From Synergistaceae bacterium (GTDB lineage: Bacteria > Synergistota > Synergistia > Synergistales > Aminobacteriaceae), in NCBI GenBank assembly GCA_012521675.1, contig JAAYLU010000007.1:1-43331 (forward strand): a stretch of 43,331 bases of DNA, given 5' to 3'. This document shows positions 40,591-42,056 of this stretch, piece by piece (positions within the stretch are counted from its first letter, which is position 1; every line of letters begins with the position of its first letter). The position numbers and the translations under genes are program-made. The notes beneath the pieces were generated by a model, which saw only the letters and a list, made by a program, of their open reading frames with translations, ran no database searches and had not been told where the DNA came from.

Positions 40591-40719
40591 GCGGTTGCCT
40601 GCGGGGAATCCAGTCCCGTGCGGCGGAGACCTTCGAATCCTGTCAGGCCCGGAAGGGAGCAGCAGTAAGGAGAAATCTCCGGGCGCCACGGGGAGGCTGG
40701 GTTTCCCGCAGGCAACCGC
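40591..40719 (+). ncRNA. ffs: Signal recognition particle RNA (4.5S type)
   Basis: The conserved Ffh-binding tip GTCAGGCCCGGAAGGGAGCAGC is recognisable around 40641-40662 (GGAAG tetraloop region and the asymmetric loop with AGCAGC). The ends form a long helix, GCGGTTGCCTGCGGG (from 40591) with CCCGCAGGCAACCGC (to 40719). The length of about 129 bases indicates the small form without an Alu domain. CTTTT after the helix serves as terminator. An outer CGACGG/CCGTCG pairing (40580-40585, 40727-40732) could extend the precursor. With YidC and Lgt it serves membrane targeting. Confidence 0.96.
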
Positions 40720-40722
40720 CTT

Positions 40723-41046
40723 TTACCCGTCGTCCTCCGGTAAATCCGGATTTGAAGGCGATAGCTCGATCAGCGCCTCGATGAGCTTCTCCAGGTTCTC
40801 GAACTCCGGCGACTTTATCTCGCTGACGCATTTTTGAAGGTAATTCTTCAGTATCTCTATGCACGCTTTCTGCATGGCCTTTCTCGCGGCCGAAAGCTGC
40901 AGAAGTATGTCGTAGCAATTCTTCTCCTCGATTATCATGCGCTGTATTCCGCGCAGCTGCCCCTCAACGCGGCGAAGGCGATTAAGCAGGGCCTTCTTCT
41001 CCTTGGGCAGGTTGTCGAGTTTCTCTATAAGCGAGTTGTTCGTCAT
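40723..41046 (-). CDS. CsoR-family repressor, CstR-like (persulfide-sensor type)
   Basis: 107 residues, all-helical CsoR/RcnR/FrmR fold: [17 protein letters not shown], then [16 protein letters not shown] and [10 protein letters not shown]. In copper CsoR the ligands are Cys-His-Cys at 36, 61 and 65. Here, with identical spacing, they are Cys44, Tyr69 and Cys73, so the copper histidine is missing. Two cysteines without the histidine is the pattern of CstR, which senses persulfides. An extra Cys62 is present. The ATG at 41046 has GAGGAG 10 bases upstream; a GTG at 41055 would be too close to it. The gene runs convergent to ffs, 3 bases away. Confidence 0.85.
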
Positions 41047-41070
41047 TCCCGGCACTCTCCTCGATTAATA

Positions 41071-41116
41071 ATATTCCTACAGGGTATATCTTACTTCGCG
41101 AAAGGTTGAAGGTCAA
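41071..41116 (-). promoter_or_regulatory. Promoter and candidate operator of the CstR-like gene
   Basis: On the minus strand TTGACC (41116-41111), 17 bases, TAAGAT (41093-41088). Overlapping the -10 and the expected start is a 19-base dyad at 41071-41089, ATATNCC-N5-GGNATAT, which resembles CsoR-family operators (AT-flanked CC/GG arms). Autoregulation is likely but inferred. Confidence 0.6.
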
Positions 41117-41135
41117 TCGGTTTTTATGCTATAAT
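41106..41135 (+). promoter_or_regulatory. Promoter of rpsB-tsf
   Basis: TTGAAG at 41106-41111, 18-base spacer, TATAAT at 41130-41135 with an extended TGC. Its -35 touches the -35 of the opposing repressor promoter. A 5' leader of about 108 bases follows; no clear stem-loop or rpsB leader motif was identified in it. Confidence 0.8.
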
Positions 41136-41249
41136 TTCGTGTCCTCAATACGCACACGGGCTGATGGCGCGGGCGGTGTCGACTCTGTTGATCCCCGCTT
41201 CAGGCGATGTCCGTGGAGGGAAAACCATTTTACATCAGGAGGGGTTATT

Positions 41250-42056
41250 TTGGCAGTTGTCAGCATGAAGCAGCTCTTGGAGTGCGGGGTTCACTTCGGT
41301 CACCAGACGAGGCGGTGGAACCCGAAGATGAAGCCGTACATATTCACCGAACGGAACGGCGTCTACATAATCGACCTTCAGAAGACAGTCCGCGGCCTTG
41401 AAAAGGCCTACAACTTCGTAAGAGAGATAGCACAAAACAACGGGACCCTACTGTTCGTCGGCACAAAGCGCCAGGCGCAGGACACGATCAGGGATGAGGC
41501 CGAAAGAGCGGGACAGTTTTACATCAACCAGCGCTGGCTTGGAGGGCTGCTGACGAACTTTGCGACCATCAGGAAGCGCGTGATTCACATGACCGAACTG
41601 CGCAGGATGGAGGACGACGATGACTGGGGCGACCTCCCGAAGAAAGAGATAATCCTTCTTCGCAAGCAGCTTGCCAAGCTCGAGAAGAACCTCAAGGGGA
41701 TCAAGAACATGAAGACCGTTCCGGACGCTGTCTTCCTTATCGACCCCAGGAGAGAGGAGAATGCCGTCCTCGAGGTCAGGAAGCTAGGCATTCCAGTCAT
41801 CGCGATAGTTGACACGAACTGCGACCCAGAGATGATCGATTTTCCGATACCCGGAAACGACGATGCGATCCGAGCCATCAAGCTGATCTCGAGCCTAATA
41901 GCCGACGCCTTCATCGAGGGCAAGCAGGGCGAGGACTCCGTCGCGGAGATAGAGGCGGAGGCCCCGGAGGACGAAGAGCCCGAGGGCATCATCGAAAAAA
42001 AGGAGCGTCTGCACAAAGTCTATGATGACGATGACGACGCCGCCGAAGAGGCCTAG
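41250..42056 (+). CDS. rpsB: 30S ribosomal protein S2
   Basis: 268 residues. The start is TTG at 41250 ([20 protein letters not shown]) with AGGAGG at 41237-41242, 7 bases upstream; the frame runs back to 41106 through the promoter and is not coding there. Core S2 motifs are [41 protein letters not shown] and [13 protein letters not shown]2 joins the 30S subunit late through S1. The C-terminal 45 residues are a very acidic extension ending [11 protein letters not shown], longer than the E. coli tail. Confidence 0.96.

Follow-up and report, generated by a model that had tools for sequence, protein, structure and literature searches.

A CstR-like branch of the CsoR repressor family, encoded divergently from rpsB in Synergistota, with a predicted small redox regulon

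The 43,331-nucleotide stretch of Synergistota DNA analyzed here (the window) carries, divergent from the rpsB-tsf-pyrH operon, a gene for a CstR-like variant of the CsoR family whose predicted regulon is small and redox-related. This unusual place next to rpsB recurs in each of the ten families of the order covered here. Its characteristic residues, the clade to which it belongs, the synteny, the conserved elements around the gene and the sites of the regulon are evident from sequence comparison. We consider it rather probable that the gene product is a CstR-like cysteine repressor that governs a small redox regulon from a palindromic site, represses its own gene and is released by thiol oxidants, with a possible effect on rpsB.

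The csoR-like gene (CDS at 40723..41046, minus strand) encodes a 107-aa protein from the ATG at 41046, about 10 nt upstream of which GAGGAG is read in the sequence; this ATG was taken as the start because the GTG at 41055 sits too near to GAGGAG. The product, searched in a 110-aa form, matches the PF02583 (CsoR/DUF156) profile with an E value of 7.9e-26 and a score of 90.7 bits (cut-off 22.8), and a Foldseek search with its AlphaFold model (mean pLDDT 81.7, pTM 0.63) returned CsoR-family chains, CstR included, at each of ranks 1-21 (best E 2.3e-4). At the metal-site positions X, Y and Z, which are Cys, His and Cys in copper CsoR, the 107-aa product has Cys44, Tyr69 and Cys73, exactly as the initial annotation had read them. 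Tyr69 at Y departs from the Cys-His-Cys set of copper CsoR. Also absent are the RcnR ligand set with His at Y and Z (C..H..H in E. coli RcnR versus C..Y..C here) and the Pro2 described as typical of FrmR (PMC5016687), residue 2 being Thr. A further conserved cysteine, Cys62, is predicted to lie on the same helix (residues 44-76) as Cys44, Tyr69 and Cys73; with Cys62, Tyr69 and Cys73 at i, i+7 and i+11, these three should share one helix face. The initial annotation had passed over this cysteine, and likewise three features considered below: the ffs gene, the overlap of the -35 boxes and the structure in the rpsB leader.

The gene is the sole PF02583 match in its own genome (97.6% complete). 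Its neighbors are ffs, an ABC substrate-binding protein gene, hisD, mutS2 and rpsB-tsf-pyrH, the protein genes being named from sequence, and none of them is a copper or sulfur gene, in agreement with the initial annotation. The ffs gene for the small SRP RNA (40607..40705, plus strand; RF00169, 65.9 bits) is convergent with csoR, and in 26 of the 53 rpsB-linked loci of the phylum an SRP core motif, defined as a short pattern rather than by Rfam, lies no more than 400 nt beyond the 3' end of csoR.

PF02583 matches were found in 85 of the 185 genomes of the phylum, and the neighborhoods of every match bar one partial match in G123 were inspected, with flanks of up to 1.5-3 kb that were shorter at contig ends. 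Fifty-three proteins from 53 genomes, representing ten families of the order (f1-f10), are all encoded divergently from rpsB-tsf-pyrH, and within the fetched flanks this linkage was seen for 0 of the 38 other Synergistota homologues. Among the linked proteins, 44 have Tyr at position Y and six have Asn, while Ser, Asp and His occur once each, the sole His belonging to genome G019; the residue table has His kept at Y in 38/38 other Synergistota and 12/12 Firmicutes homologues. Cys62 is found in 50 of the 53 linked proteins versus 1 of the 38 others, with Ser in the remaining three linked members, and Cys occupies position Z in 53/53. In a tree of 94 columns, which is a weak tree, all 53 lie on one side of a branch with an SH-aLRT of 86, not starred. 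By residues, gene order and tree placement, the linked proteins form a distinct clade within the Synergistota.

Clustering with copper CsoR would have contradicted the initial annotation, and the same weak tree does not show it: the nearest reference is the CstR of S. pneumoniae, the sole CstR included, which is joined with an SH-aLRT of 91 on a long branch, again not starred, and the copper CsoRs lie farther off. The CstR repressors known from S. aureus, E. faecalis and S. pneumoniae (7mq1-7mq3) sense persulfide, which forms di- or trisulfide links in the protein and so lowers its affinity for DNA. They share with the linked clade the CsoR fold, Cys at X and Z and a Y position without His; the S. 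pneumoniae protein has Asn there, its residue 55 being the counterpart of Tyr69 in the alignment (the entry title of 7mq3 names N55A). CoA-disulfide-reductase-like genes are also among the likely targets in Synergistota relatives. The linked clade differs from CstR in having mostly Tyr at Y together with a third conserved Cys, in its fixed place against rpsB with no adjoining sulfurtransferase operon, and in glutaredoxin being the commonest target found. CstR targets often lie near cstR, according to PMC10318464; the window gene is instead flanked by ffs and rpsB. The same source describes TTHA1953 of Thermus thermophilus, a two-Cys CsoR-family regulator that binds DNA best when reduced, has distant sulfur targets and gave no response to NaHS in vitro. 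It resembles the window protein, as predicted here, in acting away from its own gene, but its consensus TACNNTACNNNNGTANNGTA is without a G/C tract and its targets are Sox genes (PMC10318464). From copper CsoR, including the products of the other Synergistota csoR loci, with which it shares the fold and the type of palindrome, the linked clade is set apart by replacement of the His in 52/53 members and by the lack of an adjoining copper exporter.

Between csoR and rpsB (41250..42056, plus strand), which encodes ribosomal protein S2, heads rpsB-tsf-pyrH and was matched in 166 of the 185 genomes, a promoter scan places two back-to-back promoters. That of csoR is TTGACC-17-TAAGAT (41116-41088, minus strand), with the -35 box at 41111..41116 and the -10 box at 41088..41093; that of rpsB is TTGAAG-18-TATAAT (41106-41135, plus strand), with the -35 box at 41106..41111 and the -10 box, preceded by TG, at 41130..41135. 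The -35 boxes overlap by one base, so that both promoters are unlikely to hold polymerase at once. The joint element TTGnnGGTCAA is present in 45 of the 53 regions with the linked gene versus 0 of 46 rpsB upstream regions sampled from genomes without it (p 2.7e-20, a guide only, as the species are related), and GGTCAA by itself in 45/53 versus 1/46. By eye, the sampled regions that lack csoR retain the leader and a similar -10 box of rpsB. Loss of GGTCAA where csoR is missing, while the -10 box and leader stay, indicates that GGTCAA serves csoR. In four regions without csoR (L133, L140, L232, L234) an SRP-RNA-like sequence stands, by eye, directly before rpsB, as if csoR had been lost from between the two.

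The rpsB 5' leader (41136..41249, plus strand) is predicted to close with a covarying seven-pair helix, showing up to six pair types in an RNAalifold alignment of 94 leaders. A covarying closing helix before rpsB is also a property of the t44/rpsB leader RNA (RF00127; for the rpsB motif, PMC2704228). Rfam t44 matched two of the 12 relatives searched, L214 (37.4 bits, E 1.1e-4) and L064 (23.4 bits, E 0.99), both below the gathering score of 44, and the window's own leader gave no Rfam match at E values up to 0.5. Conservation of this t44-like leader hints at a feedback loop specific to rpsB, so that the repressor would come in as an additional signal.

The initial annotation had also proposed a dyad at 41071-41089 as the self-operator, overlapping the gene's own -10 box. 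The overlap is real, amounting to 2 nt of TAAGAT in the promoter scan, and the dyad spans the likely start site; its position is conserved among relatives. The left arm ATATTCC is not, and symmetry by itself was discarded as a signal: the window holds 109 7-N5-7 repeats with at least 6/7 pairs, the dyad included, which puts such symmetry at chance level. The candidate self-operator is better described as a degenerate copy of ATATACYC-N5-GRGTATAT at 41069..41089, with three mismatches the best match in the window (the runner-up has four). The part common to many relatives is ATACNGGGTATAT at 41077..41089, which the window carries with one mismatch as CTACAGGGTATAT. In the form ATAC-N3-GTAT the element occurs in 29 of the 53 regions with csoR, and as ATACNGGGTAT in 28, versus 0/46 regions without csoR for either form; it is missing in f3, f4, f6, f9 and some others. 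It starts 29 bp ahead of the -35 element in 23 of the 25 regions having both. The spacing of its arms is unlike that of the regulon palindrome. Genome-wide, ATACNGGGTATAT was searched in 35 csoR-bearing genomes, picked from the 53 after the regions had been seen and with groups apparently lacking the site left out, and was exact at csoR-rpsB in 27 of them.

As a wider regulon signal ATACNGGGTATAT was rejected, the three additional exact matches in those 35 genomes all lying in coding DNA. With one mismatch allowed, 11 genomes with csoR gave 71 matches beyond their 11 csoR-rpsB sites versus 17 for the reversed control, and 11 genomes without csoR gave 69 versus 66. Codon scoring did not separate these one-mismatch matches from coding DNA, so that the excess in genomes with csoR is explained only as far as the glutaredoxin sites. 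Besides csoR, the window's own genome has two such matches in coding DNA and one near a skp-like gene; the latter, L144:1501 on contig C42, lies shortly before the skp/ompH-like gene and is probably due to chance.

The fuller palindrome came to light in three relatives through one-mismatch matches to ATACNGGGTATAT; in these it precedes a glutaredoxin gene. The orthologous gene of the window genome (G000:C88:1575-1802), whose product passes the NCBIfam YruB-family cut-off (92.0 versus 88.55), is preceded by ATATACTC-CCCAT-GAGTATAT, ending 19 nt before the start. This exact copy is the only TATACYC-N5-GRGTATA site in that genome at up to one mismatch, and it supports the initial suggestion that the regulon lies away from csoR. 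Upstream regions of glutaredoxin genes were then scored against ATATACCC-N5-GGGTATAT with a threshold of 13/16, taking the best copy per genome. This covered 43 of the 48 csoR-bearing genomes with a glutaredoxin match and, of the remaining genomes with such a match, 21 of 48. The comparison leaves out G027, G120 and G014 as unassigned; L002-L009, which are copies of G-labelled genomes, were also omitted, as were L126, L139, L221 and L402 from the upstream sets. At least 13/16 was reached in 22 of the 43 genomes with csoR (21 if the second glutaredoxin copy through which G020 is counted is disregarded) versus 0 of the 21 without (p 1.5e-5), and in 6 of 9000 mononucleotide shuffles. The palindrome is absent or weak (<13) before glutaredoxin in 21 of the 43, notably in f2, f3, f4 and f6. 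In the glutaredoxin gene of G027 (L351, minus strand), an in-frame TGA stands at the first active-site Cys (T*PWC), which probably makes its product a selenoprotein form of the YruB type; several further genomes have one TGA within the glutaredoxin match.

Across the phylum, exact TATACYC-N5-GRGTATA occurs at 25 sites in 22 of the 185 genomes, compared with 8 sites in 7 genomes for the reversed control. All but two of these 22 genomes belong to the 85 that have a PF02583 match (20/22; p 4.4e-6, without correction for relatedness). The exceptions are G027, in which the contig starts inside the self-operator region, and G120, which is 86% complete and has no rpsB match. The sites precede or adjoin genes for glutaredoxin (7), a 4Fe-4S membrane protein (4), CoA-disulfide-reductase-like proteins (3, all below the family cut-off), CC/Se-motif proteins (2), copper-type csoR (3) and others (6). 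Redox-type contexts account for 16 of the 22 non-copper sites; for 15 of these the genome carries the linked gene, and the sixteenth is in G027. The remaining six, which have no assigned or plausible context, comprise a formate-THF-ligase-like gene of G027 (by eye), G120, two sites in G178, a coding site in G184 and the second site in G172. The initial annotation would have been contradicted by operator matches at copper genes only; the assigned exact sites in genomes with the linked gene instead precede redox-type genes. Assignments made by eye include the G171 oxidoreductase and the 4Fe-4S proteins of G170, which has no Pfam match, and of G009. The exact site in G009 (L312) lies between a gene of the PF03313 serine-dehydratase-alpha type, which we take to be possibly a cysteine desulfidase, and the divergent 4Fe-4S-type membrane gene, and that in G108 (f6) closely follows a P-type ATPase gene at its 3' end and precedes a 4Fe-4S membrane gene that is co-directional with, and upstream of, a glutaredoxin gene. 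The CC/Se-motif genes behind exact palindromes, L418:1538-1834 (plus strand) and L321:1167-1466 (minus strand), contain one in-frame TGA each; L321 passes NCBIfam NF041239 (42.2 bits, cut-off 40) and L418 is below it (30.5). Of the genes that CstR controls elsewhere, rhodanese, TusA, persulfide dioxygenase and SQR are absent from the contexts of the sites that were read, a statement about these sites and not about the families genome-wide.

The three sites at copper-type csoR, in G092, G096 and G133, serve as a positive control: each lies directly before that gene, has the form TATACCC-N5-GGGTATA and belongs to a genome without the linked gene. The same palindrome type is seen in the copper-type csoR promoters of L430, L431 and L434, with a second similar copy near that of L431 (by eye). 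With one mismatch the palindrome occurs at 40 sites versus 28 for the reversed control (24 genomes), an excess too small for individual sites to be relied on; among the matches listed, such sites adjoin flavoprotein genes in G008, G017, G024, G036, G040 and G176 (G017 and G024 by eye) and precede a CopA-like ATPase gene in G023, a genome with the linked gene and no other PF02583 match. In G170 the csoR-rpsB site is itself a one-mismatch copy of the palindrome. Allowing two mismatches was abandoned, as the 342 sites fell below the 424 of the reversed control (53 genomes).

From these sites, which fit the G/C-tract pseudo-palindrome bound by tetramers of the CsoR/RcnR family, we infer that the reduced protein binds ATATACYC-N5-GRGTATAT and represses a small redox regulon, comprising the YruB-type glutaredoxin gene in the window genome and, additionally in relatives, genes for CoA-disulfide-reductase-like, 4Fe-4S membrane and CC/Se-motif (seleno)proteins. 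Its own gene would be repressed through the weaker copy with one good half-site over the csoR -10/+1 region. The repressor would be released when sulfane sulfur or a different thiol oxidant links Cys44 to Cys73' of the partner, perhaps involving Cys62 as well, and its release would turn on reductases that clear the signal. Precedents for such targets are found in two reports, on regulation of a CoA-persulfide reductase by CstR in E. faecalis (PMC9405070) and on reduction of sulfane sulfur by glutaredoxins in E. coli (PMC6831875). Since the csoR promoter shares -35 DNA with that of rpsB, the state of the repressor may also alter transcription of rpsB-tsf-pyrH; if the polymerases exclude each other, derepression of csoR could lower it. 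The suggestion in the initial annotation that the regulon might include the rpsB promoter thus holds as architecture only, in the overlapping -35 boxes and the conserved divergence. A stronger version, to which we give little weight, is a thiol or persulfide stress switch on the supply of ribosomes and EF-Ts, in which the bound repressor would shut off the csoR promoter and keep rpsB accessible, and its release would let the csoR promoter fire and occlude rpsB-tsf-pyrH while the reductases come on.

The pairing with rpsB has an even chance of being passive, with back-to-back promoters that share -35 DNA fixing the gene pair and a repressor without effect on rpsB; this reading fits the data no less well than control of rpsB. 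Genomes sampled without csoR keep the rpsB -10 box and leader with GGTCAA gone in 45/46, the self-operator is outside the rpsB core promoter, some 60 bp ahead of the probable start site, and the leader resembles the t44/rpsB type, which answers to S2 in E. coli. Against passivity, the gene order extends to all ten families of the order covered, and overlapping -35 boxes would make some interference between polymerases likely.

That the protein senses copper or another soft metal with Cys44, Cys62 and Cys73 in place of Cys-His-Cys is improbable. A third Cys could stand in for the His ligand; the one-mismatch palindrome of G023 precedes a CopA-like ATPase gene in a genome with no PF02583 match besides the linked gene, a P-type ATPase gene ends next to the exact site of G108, which lies between it and a 4Fe-4S membrane gene, and the copper-type csoR genes of G092, G096 and G133 bear the same type of palindrome. 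However, no assigned exact palindrome precedes a copper gene in any genome with the linked gene, the copA site is confined to G023 among f5, the sites of G021, G022 and G024 preceding a CoA-disulfide-reductase-like gene, and Cys62 is Ser in three members. Equally doubtful is a different regulator acting at the palindromes of the redox genes, with the linked protein controlling only itself (and rpsB). The different spacing of ATACNGGGTATAT at csoR and the occurrence of only 3 of 30 exact self-site copies elsewhere, all in coding DNA, would fit two regulators; yet most genomes that bear exact palindromes also have a PF02583 match (20/22), such palindromes stand directly at the csoR genes of G092, G096 and G133, and the csoR-rpsB site of G170 is a one-mismatch copy. 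Least probable is a sensor of formaldehyde or another electrophile like FrmR: the Cys at X, present in all DUF156 proteins and required for formaldehyde sensing by FrmR with a degree of response that varies among relatives (PMC5016687), is in place, and induction of glutaredoxin would suit a response to disulfides or electrophiles too, but the FrmR-specific Pro2 is Thr2 here, Z is Thr in E. coli FrmR and Cys in 53/53 linked proteins, and no formaldehyde gene was seen at the sites, where the one formate-THF-ligase-like gene, in G027, was assigned by eye.

A literature search, from which most subscription papers were absent, found no description of a regulator of this kind in the Synergistota; the analysis supplies a clade, a predicted operator and a set of testable targets. 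Synergistota are mostly anaerobic fermenters of amino acids, for which the handling of sulfide and persulfide should matter. A probable CstR-like cysteine repressor fixed in this position poses a precise question, namely whether thiol stress tunes a ribosomal operon through promoter overlap, and the conserved sequences suggest a thiol or persulfide sensor wired beside the genes of protein synthesis.
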